From the NCBI GenBank assembly GCA_014730235.1, contig WJIO01000133.1, positions 1-49,430 of the forward strand: 49,430 nucleotides of DNA, read 5' to 3'. Positions 12,365 through 43,103 of the stretch are shown here, in pieces. A model generated the notes under the pieces. The model was not told the DNA's origin and made no database searches. It worked only from the letters and a program-made list of their open reading frames with translations. How positions within the stretch are numbered: position 1 is the first letter of the stretch; the number at the start of each line of letters is the position of its first letter. A program made the translations under genes and the position numbers. This DNA is from Candidatus Poribacteria bacterium (GTDB lineage Bacteria > Poribacteria > DTPJ01 > WJIO01).

Positions 12365-15300
12365 GTGCAAGAAGAAAAGATAATAATCAAAGGTGCAAGA
12401 GAGCACAACCTGAGAGATGTTAATCTTGAATTACCAAGAAACAAACTTATTGTTTTTACAGGTGTCAGCGGTTCGGGTAAATCTTCTCTGGCCTTTGACA
12501 CCTTATATTCTGAAGGTCAGCGCAGGTATGTAGAATCTCTTTCTGCCTATGCACGACAGTTTCTGGGTCAGATGGAAAGACCGGATGTTGATTTTATCGA
12601 GGGACTTTCACCGGCTATATCCATCGAGCAGAAAACCGTAAGCAGAAACCCCAGATCTACTGTCGCCACCATAACAGAAATATACGATTATATGCGTGTC
12701 CTGTATGCCCGTATCGGTGTGATGCACTGCACCAGTTGCGGCAGAGAAGTAGGTACTCAGACAGTTGACCAGATTATAGACCGAATACTCCAGTTACCAG
12801 AGGGAAGAAGAATTCAGATACTTGCCCCCATAGCCCGGGAACAGAAGGGTGAGTATAAGGACGATTTTGAAGCAGCCTTAAGGTCTGGTTATACCCGGGC
12901 CAGAATAGATGGACGATTATACGAATTAACCGACAATATCAGACTCGACAGGCAGATCCGCCACAACATAGAGATAGTAGTTGATCGTATAGTCATTCGG
13001 GAGAACATCAGAAGTCGTCTTAATGAATCAGTAGAAGCCGCCCTTGAGCTTGCCGAAGGCGCTATTATAGTAAATGTTCTCGAGGATAAAAAAGCCGACC
13101 CACCTGTAGAGGAAGAGGATATTCTATTTAATAAAAACCTCGTCTGTCCTGTCTGTGGTATCAGCTTCGAGGAACTCATACCCCAGATGTTTTCCTTTAA
13201 CAGCCCCCAGGGCATGTGCCAGACTTGTAAAGGGCTTGGCTTTAATATGGAAATAGATCCAGATCTGGTGGTTCCAGATAAAAGCAGGTCAATAAATCAA
13301 GGTGCTATAGCTCTTATCGGCGAACCAAAAGGATTATGGATAAAGCACCTGATGGAAGGCCTTGCAAAGCATTATAAATTTTCTTTGGATACCCCCTGGT
13401 CTAAACTGACCAAAACCCAGCAAAAAGCCGTACTTTACGGCACTGGCAGAAAGAAAATAAGCTTTGTCTATACATCCAGTGATGGACGTAAATTTCGACG
13501 CAAAAGGAAATACGAGGGTATCATCCCGAACCATGAGCGAAGATTTAACGACACAAACTCCGATGGAATGCGAGAGCATGTAGCAAAATTCATGGGAAGT
13601 ATTCCATGCAGTGCATGCAAAGGGAATAAACTCCGTCCGGAAAGCCTGGCCGTTACAGTTGGGGATAAGAACATCATGGATATTGTGAAACTGTCCATTG
13701 ATGAAGCCGCCGATTTCTTCGACAAACTTCCCCCAAAACTTAACGCCACTCAGCTTTTTATCGGTGATGAGCTTATAAAGGAAATTCGCGGGCGTATTGA
13801 GTTTTTGCTTAATGTGGGATTAAACTACCTGACACTAAACAGAACCGCACCAACCCTATCCGGCGGAGAAGCTCAGAGAATACGTCTTGCAAGCCAGATT
13901 GGAAGTGGTCTCGTTGGTGTTTTATATATACTGGATGAACCAACCATCGGTCTGCATTCTAGGGATAACCGACGTCTTCTGGATGCCCTTAAAGCTCTTA
14001 GAGACAGGGGAAACACCGTCATAGTGGTCGAACACGACGAAGAAACCATGCTGGCCGGAGATATGATAGTAGATTTCGGCCCGGGCCCCGGTGTAAAGGG
14101 TGGTTATATCGTTGCCCATGGTACACCCTACGAGATAAGTCAGAATGGAAAATCCGTCACTGGTAAGTATCTAAGCGGTCAGTTGATGATAGACATACCT
14201 GATAAGCGCAGACCCATCAACGGTGAATGGATCACTGTAAAAGGCGCAAGGCATAATAATTTGAAGGATATTGATGTAAAAATCCCTCTGGGTGTTTTTA
14301 CATGTGTTACAGGTGTTTCCGGTTCCGGTAAAAGTTCCCTTGTAAACGACATCCTTCACAAAACCCTGGCCAGGGATTTAATGCGGGCCTATGCTAATCC
14401 CGGCGAACACGATAGCATAGAGGGCATGGAACTGTTGAATAAGGTTATTGATATAGACCAATCGCCAATTGGTCGCACACCCAGATCAAATCCTGCCACA
14501 TATGTAAAGCTTTTTGACGTAATAAGGGATTTATTCTCTAAGCTGCCTGAATCCCAGGTTCGAGGCTATAAACCCGGCAGATTCAGCTTTAATGTCAAGG
14601 GTGGTCGCTGCGAAGCCTGTAAAGGTAACGGCATGAAGGAAATCAAGATGCATTTCTTACCCGATGTATGGGTAAAGTGTGAAGTGTGCAACGGTATGCG
14701 TTATAACAACGAAACCCTTCAGATAAAATTCAAGGGTAAGAACATATCCCAGGTTCTGGATATGGACGTTCAGGAAGCCCTGGAACACTTTGAAAATGTG
14801 CCAAAAGCGTCCAGGATAATCCAGACACTGCATGACGTAGGTCTGGATTATATAAAGCTGGGACAGCCAGCACCTACCCTTTCCGGCGGAGAAGCACAAA
14901 GGGTAAAGCTGGCAAAAGAGCTTTGTCGGGTAGCCACAGGCAAAACCATATACATACTGGACGAACCTACAACTGGCATGCACTTCGCCGACACCCAGAA
15001 GCTGCTGGATGTGCTTAACAGGCTTGTGGACGCAGGCAATACAGTCGTAGTTATCGAGCATAACATGGAGGTTATTAAAACCGCCGATTACATAATTGAC
15101 CTGGGACCCGAAGGCGGCGAAGGCGGTGGATGGGTTGTAGCTGAAGGAACACCTGAGGAGATGGCCCAGAGGGATGATTCTTATACAGGAAAGGTACTCA
15201 GGGAAGTATTAAGCAACGGAGGCAAAAAGCAGTTACCAGAAGAATCTTATCTTGATCAAACCCCCAACAAACCTATGACCCATATAAAAGTCAAAGGTGC

Positions 15301-18106
15301 TAGAGAACATAACCTTAAAAGTATTGATGTGGATATACCTTTGAGGCGGATGACAGTATTAACAGGGGTAAGTGGTTCAGGTAAAACATCCCTGGCTCTG
15401 GATACCATATACGCAGAGGGACAGCGGCGATATGTGGAATCCCTGTCCAGCTATGCAAGGCAGTTCCTGGGGCAGATGCCAAAACCCCATGTGGACTATA
15501 TAACAGGTCTGGCCCCTGCGGTGGCTATCGAACAAAAACCAGCCAGCATTAGCCCGCGCTCAACAGTGGGAACAGTTACTGAAATATACGATTACATGCG
15601 GGTATTGTTTGCCCGGATCGGTATACCTCATTGTCACCAGTGTGGTAGGGAGATAAGCACCCAATCCGTCCAGCAGATGGTGGACAGGATCATGGAATCA
15701 CCGGAAGACACCCGGGTGTATGTTATGGCACCAGTAATACTGGATCGGAATGAAGATTATGAGACAGTGCTTAAGAGGGCATACAGTGATGGTTTTGTAA
15801 GAGCCTGGGTGGACGGTAATTTGTTCGATCTACAACAGGATATACAGATTGACAGACGAAGCAAGCACGATGTTGCCATAGTTGTAGATAGGATAGTAAT
15901 AAGGGAAGATAACAGGAGCAGGCTTGCAGAAGCTGTGGAAACAGCGTTATCCGAAGACCACTCGGATCATAAGGTAATTGTTGAGTTCTTTCCGCCTTCA
16001 GGTGTGGATGATCCAAATGATGAACTGCATAGAATAGAAACTTTCAGCGAAGAATTTGCATGTGTCCATTGTGGTATAAGCTTTGATGAAATAACCCCCC
16101 AGAGCTTTTCGTTTAATGCACCCGACGGCATGTGTACCAGATGTAACGGATTAGGAACAGTTCGAGCTGCTGACCCGGAATTGATAGCACCTAATAGTAA
16201 TATTTTTGCTGTTAGGGAAGGCGCATTGCAGCCTCTTGGACATCTGTCGTATAGAAATCCCATATGGGATTATCTTAAAGTTTTAGCTGATCATTACAAA
16301 TTTTCTCTTAATAAGGCTTTTGGAAATCTATCAAAAAAACATCAGGATATTATACTTTATGGAACTGATGAGTATCTGGAACTGAATGGCCTGGAATTCC
16401 GATGGAGAGGTATTGCCAGATCTTTGGAATGGGTTTATGAACGAAGGCGATACCGCAGGGAGATAAGCCAGTTTATGACAGATGTAACCTGTCCTGAATG
16501 TGATGGTGGACGTTTGGTTTCTGAAAGTGTTTCAGTGACTATAAACGATGAATCAATAGTCAGCGTGATTAACATGTCTATTGCTGAAGCAAAAAGATTT
16601 TTTGATAACGTGGAACTTACGGAAAATCAGAAAAAGATCAGCGCGGAAGTCCTTAATGAAATCCGAAGCAGACTTCAGTTTCTTGTGGACGTAGGTCTTG
16701 AATATCTAACCCTGGCCCGTTCTGCCCCGACCCTGTCCGGTGGTGAAGCTGAACGTATAAGACTTGCCAGCCAGTTAGGTTGTGGTCTTGCCGGTGTGCT
16801 TTATGTATTGGATGAACCTACAGTTGGTCTACACCAGAGGGACACCAGCAGGCTGTTAAAGGCCTTAAGAAATTTAAGGGATCTGGGAAACAGCGTGCTG
16901 GTAGTTGAACATGATCGCGATACAATTAACACCGCCGATCATATGCTGGATTTCGGCCCCGGGGCTGGCGTAATGGGTGGTCAGATAGTCGCCCAGGGAA
17001 ATCCTGAGGAGATAAAATCTCAAAATAATTCCCTTACTGCCAGCTATCTTAACGGCAACCTGAATATACATGCGTCTCGATTCAGAAGACCTGCAAATAA
17101 AAAATGGCTTGAAGTTATAGGGGCGCGCCATCACAACTTAAAAAATATTGATGTTAGAATTCCCTTGGGAGTATTTACATGTATAACCGGCGTGTCCGGC
17201 TCCGGCAAAAGTTCACTGGTGAATGATATTATTCATAATTCCCTGGCACATAAGCTGCACAGGGCAAATACAAAACCGGGGAAACATGATGAAATCAAGG
17301 GTATAGAGAATGTAGACAAGGTTATAGATATAGACCAGAAGGCCATTGGGGATACACCCAGGTCAAACCCGGTTACATACATTGATGCTTTTACAGACAT
17401 AAGGCATCTGTATGCAGAATTACCCGATGCTAAAGTCAGGGGTTTCAGCGCCCGGAAATTTAGCTTTAATGTAAAAGGCGGTCAGTGTGATGACTGTGGC
17501 GGTAACGGTTACAAGAGAATTGAAATGCATTTTCTGGCTGACGTATGGATAGAATGTGATACCTGTCATGGAAATCGTTATAAACGGGAGGTGCTGGAAG
17601 TAAAATACAAAGATAAAAGCATCTCTGATGTATTAAACATGACAGCCCGGGAGGCACTGGAACTGTTTGAAAATGTACCAAAGGTAAAAAGACGGCTGCA
17701 AATGCTTTGCGATGTTGGTCTTGATTATATTCAATTGGGACAATCGGCTACAACCCTTTCCGGCGGCGAAGCCCAAAGGGTTAAGCTGGCCAGCGAACTG
17801 GCAAGACCCAGCACCGGCAGAACCCTGTATTTACTGGATGAACCAACAACAGGTCTGCATTTTGCCGATGTTCAGAAATTGCTGGATGTGCTTAATCGGC
17901 TTGTGGATAAGGGTAATACGGTGGTTGTTATTGAGCATAATATGGATGTTATTAAGAATGCAGATTACATAATAGACCTGGGTCCTGAAGGAGGGGAGCA
18001 GGGAGGTTATATAGTAGCTACAGGAACTCCTGAACAGGTGGCAGAAGTAAGGGAATCCCATACAGGTTTATATGTCAGAGAAGCCCTTCAGTTGCAGGAG
18101 GCATAA
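12365..18106 (+). CDS. uvrA: tandem double UvrA (two full excinuclease A subunits fused)
   Basis: A 1913-residue fusion of two complete UvrA proteins, the damage-recognition ATPase of nucleotide excision repair that loads UvrB on DNA. Copy one spans about residues 1-970: Walker A GVSGSGKS at 33-40, zinc motifs CTSCG, CPVCG/CQTC and CSAC, signature LSGGEAQRIRLASQIG, a second Walker A, the CEACKGNG...CEVCNG finger and LSGGEAQRVKLAKEL. Copy two starts near M971 (MTHIKVKGAREHNLKSIDV) and repeats every element over about 943 residues. So four ATPase sites and two full zinc-finger sets are present, against two ATPase sites in a standard UvrA of about 940 residues. Normal UvrA works as a dimer, so this protein may fold as a covalent dimer. 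The start is GTG, with GGAG 8 nt upstream. Confidence 0.95.
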   Translation: MQEEKIIIKGAREHNLRDVNLELPRNKLIVFTGVSGSGKSSLAFDTLYSEGQRRYVESLSAYARQFLGQMERPDVDFIEGLSPAISIEQKTVSRNPRSTVATITEIYDYMRVLYARIGVMHCTSCGREVGTQTVDQIIDRILQLPEGRRIQILAPIAREQKGEYKDDFEAALRSGYTRARIDGRLYELTDNIRLDRQIRHNIEIVVDRIVIRENIRSRLNESVEAALELAEGAIIVNVLEDKKADPPVEEEDILFNKNLVCPVCGISFEELIPQMFSFNSPQGMCQTCKGLGFNMEIDPDLVVPDKSRSINQGAIALIGEPKGLWIKHLMEGLAKHYKFSLDTPWSKLTKTQQKAVLYGTGRKKISFVYTSSDGRKFRRKRKYEGIIPNHERRFNDTNSDGMREHVAKFMGSIPCSACKGNKLRPESLAVTVGDKNIMDIVKLSIDEAADFFDKLPPKLNATQLFIGDELIKEIRGRIEFLLNVGLNYLTLNRTAPTLSGGEAQRIRLASQIGSGLVGVLYILDEPTIGLHSRDNRRLLDALKALRDRGNTVIVVEHDEETMLAGDMIVDFGPGPGVKGGYIVAHGTPYEISQNGKSVTGKYLSGQLMIDIPDKRRPINGEWITVKGARHNNLKDIDVKIPLGVFTCVTGVSGSGKSSLVNDILHKTLARDLMRAYANPGEHDSIEGMELLNKVIDIDQSPIGRTPRSNPATYVKLFDVIRDLFSKLPESQVRGYKPGRFSFNVKGGRCEACKGNGMKEIKMHFLPDVWVKCEVCNGMRYNNETLQIKFKGKNISQVLDMDVQEALEHFENVPKASRIIQTLHDVGLDYIKLGQPAPTLSGGEAQRVKLAKELCRVATGKTIYILDEPTTGMHFADTQKLLDVLNRLVDAGNTVVVIEHNMEVIKTADYIIDLGPEGGEGGGWVVAEGTPEEMAQRDDSYTGKVLREVLSNGGKKQLPEESYLDQTPNKPMTHIKVKGAREHNLKSIDVDIPLRRMTVLTGVSGSGKTSLALDTIYAEGQRRYVESLSSYARQFLGQMPKPHVDYITGLAPAVAIEQKPASISPRSTVGTVTEIYDYMRVLFARIGIPHCHQCGREISTQSVQQMVDRIMESPEDTRVYVMAPVILDRNEDYETVLKRAYSDGFVRAWVDGNLFDLQQDIQIDRRSKHDVAIVVDRIVIREDNRSRLAEAVETALSEDHSDHKVIVEFFPPSGVDDPNDELHRIETFSEEFACVHCGISFDEITPQSFSFNAPDGMCTRCNGLGTVRAADPELIAPNSNIFAVREGALQPLGHLSYRNPIWDYLKVLADHYKFSLNKAFGNLSKKHQDIILYGTDEYLELNGLEFRWRGIARSLEWVYERRRYRREISQFMTDVTCPECDGGRLVSESVSVTINDESIVSVINMSIAEAKRFFDNVELTENQKKISAEVLNEIRSRLQFLVDVGLEYLTLARSAPTLSGGEAERIRLASQLGCGLAGVLYVLDEPTVGLHQRDTSRLLKALRNLRDLGNSVLVVEHDRDTINTADHMLDFGPGAGVMGGQIVAQGNPEEIKSQNNSLTASYLNGNLNIHASRFRRPANKKWLEVIGARHHNLKNIDVRIPLGVFTCITGVSGSGKSSLVNDIIHNSLAHKLHRANTKPGKHDEIKGIENVDKVIDIDQKAIGDTPRSNPVTYIDAFTDIRHLYAELPDAKVRGFSARKFSFNVKGGQCDDCGGNGYKRIEMHFLADVWIECDTCHGNRYKREVLEVKYKDKSISDVLNMTAREALELFENVPKVKRRLQMLCDVGLDYIQLGQSATTLSGGEAQRVKLASELARPSTGRTLYLLDEPTTGLHFADVQKLLDVLNRLVDKGNTVVVIEHNMDVIKNADYIIDLGPEGGEQGGYIVATGTPEQVAEVRESHTGLYVREALQLQEA

Positions 18107-37279: not shown

Positions 37280-38272
37280 CTACTTCTTAAGCCAGCTCAT
37301 CATACCCCGAAGTTCTTTACCAACTTTTTCAACCACAAGATCGTTGGTCTGATTATGAAGGGCGTTAAAGACCGGTCTGCCTGCCTGGTTTTCCAGTATC
37401 CACTCCCGGGCGAATTCGCCGCTCTGGATTTCCTTCAGCATCTTTTTCATCTCAGCGCGAGTATCATCAGTAATGACTCTGGGGCCTCTTGTAAGGTCGC
37501 CGTATTCGGCTGTATCGCTGACGGAATAGCGCATGTATTCCAGACCACCTTCGTAAATAAGGTCAACGATCAATTTAAGCTCGTGCAGGCATTCAAAATA
37601 AGCTATCTCGGGCTGATAACCGGCTTCCACCAGCGTATCAAAAGCGGCTTTAATAAGTTCAGTTACGCCGCCGCATAGAACAGCCTGTTCACCAAACAGA
37701 TCGGTTTCAGTTTCCTCAGCAAATGTTGTCTCGATAACACCGGCTCTAGTTCCTCCGATGCCCTTTGCATAGGCCAGGGCGTTGGCCTTAGCGTTACCAG
37801 AGTGATCCTGATAGACGGCTATAAGGCACGGTACCCCAACACCTTCCACGTAGACTCTTCTGAGCAGATGTCCCGGGCCTTTGGGGGCGATCATTATAAC
37901 ATCAATCTCCGGCGGCGGAACGATTTGACCGAAGTGAATGTTAAAACCATGAGAAAATACCAGGGTTTTGCCTTCAACCATATGTGGAGCAACGAAGGAT
38001 TTGTATACTTTCGCCTGGACATCATCGGGAACCAGCATCTGGATGAAGTCACCTTCTTTGGCGGCTTCTTCTGCCGATACTGGTTTAAATCCATGTTCCA
38101 CAGCCAGCTTCCAGTTTTCCGTTCCCTCCAACTCGCTGACTATTACATCAACGCCGCTGTCCCGAAGATTTTGAGCTTGGGAATGACCTTGACTTCCGTA
38201 TCCTATAATAGCGACTTTTTTTCCGCTAAGAAGTCCGAGATCAGCATCTTCATCATAATACATTTTAGCCAT
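37280..38272 (-). CDS. ilvC: ketol-acid reductoisomerase
   Basis: A 330-residue class I enzyme that converts 2-acetolactate to 2,3-dihydroxyisovalerate (and the isoleucine analogue) using NADPH and Mg2+. The N-terminal Rossmann site is [23 protein letters not shown]; the Mg site residues lie in [21 protein letters not shown] and [27 protein letters not shown] is the usual C-terminal landmark. The length is normal for the short form. AGGAG precedes the ATG. It is the last gene of the ilvD-ilvB-ilvN-ilvC series; a palindromic insertion separates it from ilvN, and a strong hairpin follows it. Confidence 0.97.
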
Positions 38273-38304
38273 TTTCTAATCTCCTGTTTTGATTTTTACC
38301 AATT

Positions 38305-38426
38305 ACCTGAAAATATTGTCTTTTGTAGGTTGGGTTGAGTCTGCGAAACCCAACTTTTCTGCTGATGTGTTTCGCAGACTCAACCCAACCTAAACGGTAT
38401 TATTTATCAATTCAGTATTTTCAGGT
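38305..38426. repeat. palindromic insertion between ilvN and ilvC
   Basis: A perfect 23-bp inverted repeat (38327-38349 and 38369-38391), beginning AGGTTGGGTTGAGTC, lies inside an outer perfect 11-bp inverted repeat ACCTGAAAATA/TATTTTCAGGT (38305-38315 and 38416-38426). The outer copy abuts the ilvN stop codon. The TAGGTTGGGTTGAG...CGAAACCCAAC unit is a dispersed repeat type met in many bacteria. I see no target duplication. Confidence 0.65.
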
Positions 38427-38902
38427 TACTTGCCTCTTACTATAGCAACTCTACCCGAACGGGCTATCTCTTTAATCCCATAGGGATTAAGTATATTAAT
38501 TAACGCGGCTATTTTTTCTTCGTTGCCTGTAACAGCTATAATCATGGCCTCGTGACCAACGTCAACGATGTTGGCCCGGAAGATGTCGGCTATGTGTATA
38601 ATCTCCGATCTGTTTCCGGGTTGGGATGATACTTTTATCATAACAAGTTCCCGCTCAACATGCTTTTCCGTACTCAGATCGTTGACTTTTATAACATCAA
38701 CCAACCGGTTTAGCTGTTTGGTTATCTGTTCCAGTATTTTATCATCACCCCGGGCGACGATTGTCATCCTCGAAACAGTCGTGTCCTCGGTTTCAGCCAC
38801 GTTAAGACTATCTATGTTATAACCACGACCACTGAATAATCCTGCCACCCTGGCCAGCACTCCGGATTTATTTTCCACCAGAACCGAAATTGTATGTCTC
38901 AT
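38426..38902 (-). CDS. ilvN: acetolactate synthase small (regulatory) subunit
   Basis: A 158-residue regulatory subunit (also named IlvH). The N-terminal ACT domain is RHTISVLVENKSGVLARVAGLFSGRGYNIDSLNV, the valine-binding signature of this family; the C-terminal ALS_ss domain ends GIKEIARSGRVAIVRGK. It binds the large subunit, raises its activity and gives valine feedback. GGAGG lies 9 nt before the ATG. It follows ilvB by 53 nt and precedes ilvC. Confidence 0.96.
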   Translation of the reverse strand: MRHTISVLVENKSGVLARVAGLFSGRGYNIDSLNVAETEDTTVSRMTIVARGDDKILEQITKQLNRLVDVIKVNDLSTEKHVERELVMIKVSSQPGNRSEIIHIADIFRANIVDVGHEAMIIAVTGNEEKIAALINILNPYGIKEIARSGRVAIVRGK

Positions 38903-38955: not shown

Positions 38956-40635
38956 TTATGCCATACCTTCAATGATTCCGATCATCTCGTGTATTGATGC
39001 ACCGGCTGGAACCATTGGGAAAACGTTCTCGCTTCGGTCTACTATGAAATCCAAGAATACGGGGCCTGGTGTTTCCAGGGCCTTGTCAATTGCTTTTCTT
39101 ACTTCGTCTGGTCTTGCTGCCCGGATGCCTGTGGCGCCAAAAGCTTCTGCCACTTTCACAAAATCCGGGTTTGTTACAAGATCAACCCCGGAAAGCCGAC
39201 CATCATAAAATAGGTCCTGCCATTGGCGAACCATACCTAAAAAGCTGTTATTCAGTATAGCGACTTTAACAGGAAGTTTATTTGCCACAGCAGTAGTGAT
39301 CTCCTGTATATTCATCTGGATACTACCATCGCCGGCAATATCAAATACTATTTTGTCCGGACATCCCACCTGAGCACCTATAGCCGCTGGAAAGCCATAT
39401 CCCATTGTACCTAGACCGCCTGATGACAGGAATGTTCGTGGTCTCGTATATTTATAGAATTGTGCAGCCCACATCTGGTTTTGTCCTACCTCTGTGACGA
39501 TTATGGCCTCACCCTTTGTGGCTTCATAGATCTGTTCCACAACGTATTGGGGTTTTATGATATCATCACCTTGATTATAACACAATGGATATTTCTTTTT
39601 CCATGCGTCTATCTGTTCTATCCAGGATTCTGCGGAAGGATTCTCTATCCGTTTTGTTAATTCAGTAAGTATATTCCTGGCATCGCCAACTATGGGAACA
39701 TCAACATCCACATTTTTACTGATAGCCGCAGGATCAATATCGATATGTATAATCTTGGCATTAGGCGCAAAGGTTTCAAGCTTTCCGGTAACTCTGTCAT
39801 CAAATCTTGAACCAACAGCAATCAGGAGATCGCAGTTGGTTACAGCATGGTTTGCGTAACCAGTCCCGTGCATACCAAGCATACCCAGTGACAGACGATG
39901 TGTTTCCGGAAAACTTCCCAGTCCCAGAAGCGTAGTAGTAACAGGAATCTGGGCTTTTTCCGCCAGTTGTTTCAGTTCTTCATGGGCGCCGGATATTATC
40001 GCCCCTCCACCCACATATAAAACTGGTTGTTTTGCCGCATTAATTATTTCCGCAGCTTTATCAATCTGTTTGGGATGACCGGAGTAAGTTGGTTTGTATC
40101 CCCGAATTTTAATATTTTCGGGGTAGACAAATTCAGTCTCTGTCCGTTGAGCGTCCTTTGCAATATCGATAACCACTGGTCCCGGTCTGCCGGTTCTGGC
40201 AATATGGAAAGCCTCTTTGACTGTTACTGCCAGTTCTTCCACGCTCTTTATCAGGTAATTATGCTTGGTAATAGGGCGTGTAATACCAGTCACGTCAGCT
40301 TCCTGGAAAGCGTCGTTGCCGATAAGGTGTGAATATACCTGTCCGGTAATGGCCACAATAGGAACTGAGTCCATGTATGCCGTAGCTATACCTGTAACAA
40401 GGTTAGTCGCGCCGGGGCCGGATGTGGCAATACACACACCCACTTTGCCTGTTGCTCTTGCATATCCATCGGCGGCATGGGCTGCTCCCTGCTCATGACG
40501 GGTAAGGTAATACTTTATGGCTGGTTCATCATACAGAGCATCGAATATATCAATAACCGATCCCCCGGATATACCAAACATCACTTCAACGCCTTCTTTT
40601 TTAAGGCATTCCAGGAGTATTTTTGCTCCTTTCAT
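38956..40635 (-). CDS. ilvB: acetolactate synthase large (catalytic) subunit
   Basis: A 559-residue ThDP- and FAD-dependent enzyme that makes 2-acetolactate or 2-aceto-2-hydroxybutyrate. The catalytic glutamate lies in [18 protein letters not shown], the FAD/middle domain in [15 protein letters not shown], and the ThDP-Mg motif in [15 protein letters not shown] ending in NN. The length is normal. The start is uncertain: ATG 40635 begins [15 protein letters not shown], but TTG codons at 40641 and 40650 are in frame and AGGGG lies just before the latter. It is in the ilv operon, downstream of ilvD with a palindrome and a MITE copy in between. Confidence 0.96.
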
Positions 40636-40663
40636 TTTCAATTTTATCAACCCCTATATACTT

Positions 40664-40705
40664 GATCATTGCCGGACATTTTTATAAAAATGTCCGGCAA
40701 TGATC
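40664..40705. terminator. perfect 42-nt palindrome between ilvD and ilvB
   Basis: A fully self-complementary sequence centred on ACATTTTTATAAAAATGT. If MITE copy 9 and one of its target copies are removed, this palindrome lies just after the ilvD stop, so it probably formed the original 3' structure of ilvD, as an attenuator or RNA-stabilising hairpin inside the operon. Confidence 0.7.
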
Positions 40706-40715
40706 TGATTTATTC

Positions 40716-40834
40716 GGTTTTTCCGGGTTCAGTGTGGTTATAATTGAAAATTCTCTCAGCTTGTCATTCCTGCAAGGCAGGAATGACAGCATAAAGAAGT
40801 CTCTTATCTTTACCACACTGAACCCGGAAGAGCC
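40716..40834. repeat. dispersed MITE copy 9 (119 bp, perfect target duplication at the ilvD stop)
   Basis: Terminal repeats are GGTTTTTCCGGGTTCAGTGT and ACTGAACCCGGAAGAGCC. Perfect 8-bp flanks ATTTATTC are at 40708-40715 and 40835-40842; the right copy contains the ilvD stop codon (minus-strand GAATAAAT). The A arm is on the left, the B arm on the right, and the core is short. Confidence 0.92.
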
Positions 40835-40836
40835 AT

Positions 40837-42489
40837 TTATTCTAATACCGCACCAGTTCCCGCCGATGTCACCAGTTTTGCGTATCTGGATAAGTAGCCC
40901 TTTTTAATCTTGGGTTCTGGTGCTGTCCATTTGCTTCTTCGTTCTTCCATTTCTGATTCAGAAAGATGTAAATCCAGCTTTCTGTTGGGAATGTCTATAG
41001 TTATCTTGTCCCCGTCCTGAACCAGTCCAATGGGACCACCTGCCATACCTTCTGGAGATACATGGCCTATACATGGTCCCCTGGTTCCACCGGAGAATCT
41101 GCCGTCAGTGATTAGAGCCACGCTGTCGGCCAGGTCTTTTCCAACTATAGCTGCCGTTGGCAGAAGCATTTCCCTCATACCTGGGCCTCCCTTGGGGCCT
41201 TCGTAGCGAATTACCACTACATCACCGGGTTTAATTTCATCGTCAAGAATGGCCCTCATGGCAATTTCTTCACCGTCAAATACCCGGGCTTTGCCTGTAA
41301 AGACCATTACATCATCTTTAACAGCAGTTTGTTTTACCACCGCGCCGCCGGGTGCTAATGAACCTCTGAGGATGGCAACGCCGCCCTGTTTGTGATAGGC
41401 TTTGTCCATAGTCTTTATAACATCAGGATTTACAACCGCACCGCTGGCGGAAATCTCCTTAACGGTAGATCCGCTGACTGTTATGTGATCTTTAAGCTTT
41501 GATTCCAGGACGTTCATAACGGCTGGAATACCACCGGCGTATTCCAGGTCTTCCATGAAGTGATCTCCTCCAGGACGTATGTTTGCTACGTGGGGAGTGT
41601 CCTTGCTTATTTTATCAAAGAGTTCCAGCTCAATATCAACCCCTGCATCGTGTGCAATGGCGGGTATATGCAGGACGGTATTGGTTGAACCACCCAGTGA
41701 CATATCAATTCGGATGGCATTTTCTATGGATTCCCTGGTGATTATCTGTCTGGATGTAATATCTTTCCGCACCAATTCCACGACCCTTATACCGCTTTCA
41801 TAGGCAATTCTGCGTTTATTAGCCATACCTGCCAGCCCTGTAGCACATCCGGGAAGGGACATGCCCATAGCTTCAGTCACACAAGCCATAGTATTGGCTG
41901 TATACACTCCTTGACACGATCCAGGGCCAGGGCATGCACACATTTCAACAGCTTCAAGCTCTGTAGCGTCGATCTTGCCCGCGCTGTATGCCCCTACAGC
42001 CTCAAACGTATCTCTAACCAGAGACCGTCTCTGCATCTTATACATACCGGACATCATAGGACCTGCCGTCACCACTATACAGGGAATATCCAACCTGGCA
42101 GCCGCCATAAGCATTCCCGGGGTGATCTTGTCGCAGTTGGTAAGCAGCACCAGACCATCCAGAGCATGGGCTTCAGTTATAGATTCGATCATATCAGCAA
42201 TCAATTCCCGAGAAGCCAGGGAATAGTGCATTCCCCTGTGCCCCATGGCAATACCGTCACATATACCCGGTACGCCGAAGATAAAAGAGGCTCCGCCTCC
42301 GGTATGTATACCTTTCTCAATAAATCGCTCCAGTTCCCGCATACCTATATGACCAGGTATTAGGTCTGTGAAGCTTGTTACCAGACCGATAAACGGATGC
42401 TCCATCTGCCGTTTAGCAACGCCTGTAGCATATAACAAAGCACGATGTGGTGCTCGTTCATAACCTTTTTTTACTGCATCACTTCTCAT
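40837..42489 (-). CDS. ilvD: dihydroxy-acid dehydratase
   Basis: A 550-residue iron-sulfur enzyme that dehydrates 2,3-dihydroxyisovalerate to 2-ketoisovalerate in valine, leucine and isoleucine synthesis. Cluster cysteines lie in [11 protein letters not shown] and [20 protein letters not shown]; the C-terminal [20 protein letters not shown] is a family signature. I start at ATG 42489 ([19 protein letters not shown]): this matches family N-termini and has GGGGTG upstream. The reading frame continues open to 42582, but that part encodes the T-box terminator. Its stop codon falls within the target duplication of MITE copy 9. Confidence 0.96.
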
Positions 42490-42555: not shown

Positions 42556-42876
42556 AACAACAAAAAAGCCCTTTTCTCTCACAAAGAGACGAAAAGGGTC
42601 TAATCCGCGGTACCACTCTATTTCCTTTGACAGACTTAATGTTATCTATCAAAGACGCTTTCAGTGCATTAACGGTCACAAACCGTCCAGATCTAATAGC
42701 ATATACGTTCAACCTGGAGACTCCAGGGCGACCTTCCCATCAGAATCCTTTTGTTTCTCTGCGGAGACCTCTCAGCCGGTGAATCTCCTTCTCTGTCGCA
42801 GCGATTCTGAAGGTACTACTCCCTTTCAGTGTCTTTTTAATTATTTATTATAGACAGCCTTGTGATAAAACTGTAT
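42556..42876 (-). ncRNA. T-box riboswitch leader of ilvD
   Basis: Read on the minus strand, the leader has the Stem I start GGGAGTAGTACC, the GACAGAGA and CTGAGAGG segments, a CCGTTAATGCAC stem III region, and the T-box AGAGTGGTACCGCGG (42605-42619) whose TGGT pairs with an uncharged tRNA ACCA end. A terminator stem CCCTTTTC/GAAAAGGG with a T-run follows (42562-42598). The likely specifier loop reads GAAGGTCG (42729-42736), best read as GUC, a valine codon. Low charged tRNA-Val would then permit transcription of the ilv operon. The class is sure; the specifier reading is an inference from hand folding. Confidence 0.93.
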
Positions 42877-42882
42877 GCCTGT

Positions 42883-42911
42883 AGTATATACGAAGGATTT
42901 GGATATGTCAA
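42883..42911 (-). promoter_or_regulatory. consensus sigma-70 promoter of the ilv operon
   Basis: On the minus strand a perfect TTGACA (42906-42911), a 17-bp spacer and TATACT (42883-42888) place the transcript start near 42876, at the beginning of the T-box leader. MITE copy 10 starts only 24 bp upstream of the -35 box. Confidence 0.75.
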
Positions 42912-42935
42912 GCATTATTTGCGGTTAAATTATGT

Positions 42936-43055
42936 GGTTCTTCCGGGTTTAGTGTGGTTATAATTGAAAATTCTCTCAGCTTGTCATTCCTGCAAAAGCA
43001 GGAATGACAGCATAAGGAAGTTCCTTATATTTATCACACTAAACCCGGAAGAACC
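42936..43055. repeat. dispersed MITE copy 10 (120 bp, near-consensus)
   Basis: The cleanest copy. Terminal repeats are GGTTCTTCCGGGTTTAGTGT and ACACTAAACCCGGAAGAACC, perfectly complementary. Perfect 8-bp flanks AATTATGT are at 42928-42935 and 43056-43063. The A arm is on the left and the B arm on the right. The core is GTCATTCCTGCAAAAGCAGG. Confidence 0.95.
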
Positions 43056-43103
43056 AATTATGTTTTATCCTTTACTTAAAAGTATCATGAAGTATATAAT
43101 TAA

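Follow-up and report, generated by a model that had tools for sequence, protein, structure and literature searches.

The window analysed here, a stretch of 49,430 nucleotides from a Candidatus Poribacteria bacterium, carries on its reverse strand the genes ilvD, ilvB, ilvN and ilvC, in that order and each recognised by its Pfam domains, with a T-box leader ahead of ilvD (Table 1). The T-box is a type of switch well known from Gram-positive bacteria. The segment under study (42556-42911) runs from the -35 box of a candidate promoter at one end to just beyond the poly-U tract of a terminator at the other. The start of ilvD is the ATG at 42489, in agreement with the start of the homologue in genome G016; the end of the ilvD reading frame at 42582, as given in the open reading frame list, was rejected as an artefact, since the start in relatives matches this ATG.

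Table 1. Features of the T-box leader and the ilv operon (positions are those of the window)
Feature	Position	Strand	Basis
Predicted sigma-70-type promoter: -35 TTGACA (42911-42906), 17-nt spacer, -10 TATACT (42888-42883)	42883..42911	-	Consensus match only
T-box leader RNA (Stem I, Stem II region, F-box, Stem III, antiterminator)	42582..42838	-	RF00230
Stem I tRNA-elbow-reading elements	42770..42820	-	Motif positions within Rfam alignment
AGUA box	42820-42815	-	Motif position
AG bulge CAGAGA	42795-42790	-	Motif position
GNUG loop CGGCUGAGA	42778-42770	-	Motif position
Specifier loop GAA-G-GUC-G (GAAGGTCG, as quoted in the earlier note)	42736-42729	-	Motif position
Specifier codon GUC (Val)	42730..42732	-	Rfam alignment; register from relatives
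F-box GACCGUUA	42670..42677	-	Aligned to CCGUUA of Rfam consensus
Antiterminator	42585..42619	-	Aligned to Rfam antiterminator
Antiterminator 5' arm (AGAG, GCGGA)	42619-42604	-	
tRNA-acceptor-binding bulge UGGUACC (predicted)	42615-42609	-	
Antiterminator 3' arm UUCGUCUCU	42593-42585	-	
Intrinsic terminator: hairpin (42598-42568) and U-tract (42567-42562)	42562..42598	-	Fold prediction
ilvD, dihydroxy-acid dehydratase	40837..42489	-	PF00920 9.4e-123, PF24877 5.8e-79
ilvB, acetolactate synthase large subunit	38956..40650	-	PF02775, PF00205, PF02776
ilvN, acetolactate synthase small subunit	38426..38902	-	PF10369 2.9e-30, PF22629 7.3e-25
ilvC, ketol-acid reductoisomerase	37280..38272	-	PF07991 1.4e-72, PF01450 2.1e-67

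An earlier note on this DNA had described a complete T-box leader with a terminator, lying behind a consensus promoter and preceding ilvD in an ilv operon, and had suggested an Rfam covariance-model search as a check. In that search, the leader matched RF00230 over the full length of the model (positions 1-219 of 219) with 100.1 bits (gathering score 93; E 5.5e-21), and the window has no other Rfam match that reaches its gathering score. From motif positions and the Rfam alignment, all the hallmark motifs are found within the leader in transcript order, and the fold of the whole leader beats 100 of 100 shuffles (z -3.75). By its RF00230 match and the features that can be read from its sequence, the leader is classed as a canonical T-box riboswitch, with the structure predicted by the Rfam model.

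The promoter candidate agrees with the consensus at 11 of 12 positions and is the best in the region in a consensus scan. The predicted antiterminator has nine standard pairs and, when enforced, comes to between -3.6 kcal/mol (short transcript) and -5.8 kcal/mol (whole stretch), and the terminator to -23.0 kcal/mol over a 74-nt stretch (z -2.72), with a tract of six U residues directly after its hairpin. The segment UUCGUCUCU (42593-42585) is common to both, making them mutually exclusive structures, as in an attenuating-type leader. The earlier description is therefore borne out in each of its parts, the promoter as a consensus match.

Elements of other kinds lie within and next to the operon. 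Short inverted-repeat elements with ends (G)CTTCCGGGTTYAGTGTG occur just upstream of the T-box promoter (42932-43058) and again between ilvD and ilvB (approximately 40700-40836). With at most one mismatch allowed, the 5.5 Mb genome has 548 occurrences of the 17-base end (277 and 271 on the two strands) and none of its reversed control, so that these elements look like a very abundant MITE family, which at two ends per copy would number about 270. Long hairpins lie in the gaps between ilvD and ilvB (40651-40836: GATCATTGCCGGACATTTTT...AAAAATGTCCGGCAATGATC) and between ilvN and ilvC (38273-38425: GGTTGGGTTGAGTCTGCGAAAC...GTTTCGCAGACTCAACCCAACC), and could affect read-through of the operon. Elsewhere in the genome (G000) there are two more paralogues of the IlvD/EDD family, at C138:1766-3394 and C202:9979-11388 (46% and 39% identity, respectively, to the window's IlvD).

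Which amino acid the leader senses depends on the register of the specifier. The loop GAAGGUCG allows three readings (GGU, GUC and UCG), and TBDB, which by preference takes positions 2-4 counted from the bulge's 3' end, also considers the -1 and +1 frames, so that the operon might conceivably sense glycine (GGU) or serine (UCG) rather than valine. Against this, leaders at the same locus in relatives have GAA-U-GUC-G, GAA-C-GUC-G or GAA-U-GUC-A, in which only GUC is invariant: it is preceded by G, U or C and followed by G or A in the phylum's ilv leaders. Since the flanking bases differ among relatives and GUC does not, the register is that of GUC, which is also where the Rfam alignment puts the specifier. 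GUC is present in 38 of the 40 ilv leaders; one further leader (L145) has GUC by eye, and one (L144) has AUC. The pheS leaders, in the same register, have UUC with variable neighbours. Moreover, the pathway suits valine, and the genome has a gene for tRNA-Val(GAC), with discriminator A and an encoded CCA, whose ACCA end matches UGGU in the bulge (a gene for tRNA-Phe(GAA) likewise ends in ACCA). A different register is thus improbable in the extreme, and we read the specifier as GUC, for valine, as the earlier note had preferred.

The AUC leader (L144, at the T-box/ilvB locus of genome G115 in family f8) would specify isoleucine, whereas G024, of the same genus, has GUC for valine; on a comparison of the two sequences, a single-base substitution at this locus has changed the tRNA specificity.

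We have little doubt that the T-box controls ilvD-ilvB-ilvN-ilvC by transcription attenuation in response to tRNA-Val(GAC), and that the leader has been inherited within Poribacteria. Its mode of action would be the standard one, taken by analogy from the T-box family. Uncharged tRNA-Val(GAC) would pair through its anticodon with the GUC specifier and through its free ACCA end with the UGGU bulge, holding the antiterminator in place and allowing RNA polymerase to read into ilvD; charged tRNA-Val would not make the 3'-end pairing, and the stronger terminator would form. Read-through would extend across the whole operon, although T-box control past ilvD is uncertain because a MITE and a long hairpin sit between ilvD and ilvB.

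Contig C53, which is the window, belongs to a genome of 5.53 Mb (91.6% complete, with 4.8% contamination), in which two T-boxes were found: the ilv leader, and a leader with a UUC (Phe) specifier upstream of pheS, in the gene order infC, rplT, T-box, pheS. Two genomes give one and the same pair of T-box matches: G050, which shares the phylum of the window's genome, and G068 (locus L044), named 'Candidatus Poribacteria bacterium isolate jk18xAbins.24'. In both, the matches lie at C47:55409-55688 (99.7 bits) and C10:61163-61369 (73.9 bits). By this identity G050 is taken to be the named MAG, and the window's genome is accordingly assigned to Candidatus Poribacteria. As a separate observation, the window contains on its forward strand (12365-18106) an open reading frame of 1913 residues in which the UvrA interaction and UvrA DNA-binding domains each occur twice, that is, a tandem UvrA fusion.

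Across the phylum, T-boxes were found in 78 of the 83 genomes with completeness of at least 70, in 16 of 20 genera, and in 55 of 56 high-quality genomes. This is the 'overlooked lineage distribution' that the earlier note had offered as one of two explanations for a T-box in such a genome. A typical Poribacteria genome has two, one for Val (before ilvB or ilvD) and one for Phe (UUC, before pheS). Among leaders with enough downstream sequence for the following gene to be read, those of the ilv type have ilvB next, with two exceptions: the window's genome and G016 (family f7) have ilvD first and ilvB second. The phylum's other leaders have pheS next. A terminator and poly-U tract follow 54 of the 57 leaders in the phylum set (37 of 40 ilv, 17 of 17 phe), the remaining three comprising two with weaker hairpins and one at a contig end.

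Leaders are missing or altered in a few genomes. The T-box search found none in G001, the single genome of the same order as the window's, in which the ilv contig begins inside ilvD, so that the leader region would be missing, and in which there is no T-box in the approximately 1.5 kb upstream of pheS. G108 (family f7, with ilvD of the window's type) lacks a T-box both within 500 nt upstream of its ilvD and before pheS, and G003 and G024 have pheS without a leader. Upstream of ilvB in G109 (L262) there is a T-box-like leader with a GUC loop and a terminator, in which UGCUACC replaces UGGUACC and there is no recognisable Stem I tip; it was missed by Rfam at E 0.05, and may be a decayed leader, a variant or an assembly error. 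Such losses and alterations among relatives raise the question of whether the window's leader might itself be decayed or silent, or act on translation rather than transcription. We judge this very unlikely, as its hallmark motifs are all intact, the terminator with its six-U tract follows directly, and the terminator is conserved so widely in the set; attenuation of transcription remains our reading. In G058, a pheS gene preceded by a T-box (C173, L256) groups with Anaerolineae (99), which suggests either that a contig of Chloroflexota origin was binned with Poribacteria or that genes have passed from one group to the other; the contig being probably foreign, this locus was not counted as Poribacterial evidence.

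In a set of 49 named genomes, mostly from other groups and drawn by IlvB similarity (and thus not a census), 15 have T-boxes: a Poribacteria MAG, members of Bacillota, Atribacterota and Chloroflexota, Aquicultor, two MAGs labelled Deltaproteobacteria or Proteobacteria (one of which, L117, has its T-box before leuA), and one of Endomicrobia. No T-box was found in the Omnitrophota, Latescibacterota and Nitrospirae genomes of this set.

The other explanation put forward in the earlier note was a recent acquisition of the ilv operon together with its T-box from a Clostridia-like donor. More than 95% of T-box hits are in Firmicutes (PMC2494555), and the window's IlvD is of a type unlike that of most Poribacteria, both of which might favour such a transfer. 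In the IlvB tree (95 rows), however, the window's protein pairs with that of G001 (support 99; 78% identity) within a clade of 14 Poribacteria (SH-aLRT 95), and the Firmicutes clade (95) lies outside it. In the PheS tree, the Poribacteria again fall outside Firmicutes, the foreign-looking contig of G058 aside. IlvD of the type shared by the window and f7 groups with Latescibacterota, Nitrospirae, Omnitrophota and Endomicrobia, and the first three of these have no T-box in the sampled genomes. With T-boxes phylum-wide in Poribacteria as well, a clostridial source for the ilv genes is contradicted as far as these trees go, and a recent joint transfer of operon and leader seems most unlikely. The IlvB and PheS trees agree in placing the host in Candidatus Poribacteria, the phylum of G050 and outside Firmicutes, in keeping with the non-Firmicute appearance noted earlier, and on these trees both proteins are taken to be inherited vertically within the phylum. 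A mis-binned contig is likewise unlikely, given the pairing with G001.

The history of IlvD, by comparison, is mosaic. In the IlvB tree, the window's lineage branches first and f7 next; from this order it is plausible that a Val leader followed by ilvD-ilvB-ilvN-ilvC was the ancestral arrangement and that ilvD was later lost from the operon.

The leaders themselves are less informative about their own origin. In a leader-RNA tree of 43 rows, the Poribacterial leaders form one clade (98); in one of 51 rows they do not, and a single clade is not rejected (p-AU 0.63). The window joins other Val leaders in both (support 97 and 77, respectively). Such a tree is unstable to the choice of rows, and has too little strength to show by what route T-boxes first reached the phylum. 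It is quite possible, if somewhat short of probable, that an ancestor of Poribacteria acquired leaders without genes from Firmicutes, Chloroflexota, Actinomycetota or Atribacterota, and that these later came to occupy two loci. Such a transfer concerns origin alone, and is compatible with the function of a valine T-box now. It would fit the patchy distribution among phyla (15 of the 49 named genomes, chiefly those of Bacillota, Atribacterota, Chloroflexota and Aquicultor) and the presence in Candidatus Aquicultor (L120) of a T-box with a GUC specifier and ilvD as its first gene, as in the window. The IlvD of Aquicultor is in a clade with Firmicutes, unlike that of the window.

T-boxes have been recorded in Firmicutes, Actinobacteria, Chloroflexi, Deinococcus-Thermus and Geobacter/Pelobacter (PMC2494555, PMC3766115), and none of the open-literature papers searched mentioned both T-boxes and Poribacteria. 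The window's leader resembles the transcriptional T-boxes of Firmicutes (RF00230) in its full-length match, hallmark motifs, specifier, UGGU bulge, F-box and competing terminator, and in having amino acid biosynthesis as its target; it differs in its host, Candidatus Poribacteria, where there are usually two leaders per genome, against 10-31 in the sampled Bacillota. The leuA T-boxes of Geobacter and Pelobacter (PMC2494555) are similar in their branched-chain biosynthesis target, Gram-negative hosts and small number per genome, but there is one in each genome, on leuA, whereas Poribacteria have Val leaders on ilvD or ilvB and Phe leaders on pheS. The T-boxes of Chloroflexota and Deinococcus-Thermus, a handful in each, are also in non-Firmicute hosts, but their reported targets (ile and gly tRNA ligase and trp genes) are unlike those found here (PMC2494555, PMC3766115); one sampled Anaerolineae genome has a T-box before pheS.

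A bolder reading, at only a little under an even chance, is that a fixed regulon of two leaders (Val-ilv and Phe-pheS, perhaps related by one duplication) dates back to the last common ancestor that Candidatus Poribacteria share and has since been inherited vertically, with the change from GUC to AUC in G115 taking place in situ. This would support an origin of T-boxes that is older, or a spread that is far earlier, than in the Firmicutes-centred picture. The switch is of a known type, and the accepted view of how T-boxes work is unchanged by the Poribacterial leaders; what is added is a phylum-wide extension to Poribacteria. A near-universal two-leader regulon in an uncultured phylum provides a clean, vertically inherited test case, and its ilv leaders provide a natural series of specifier changes at one locus.
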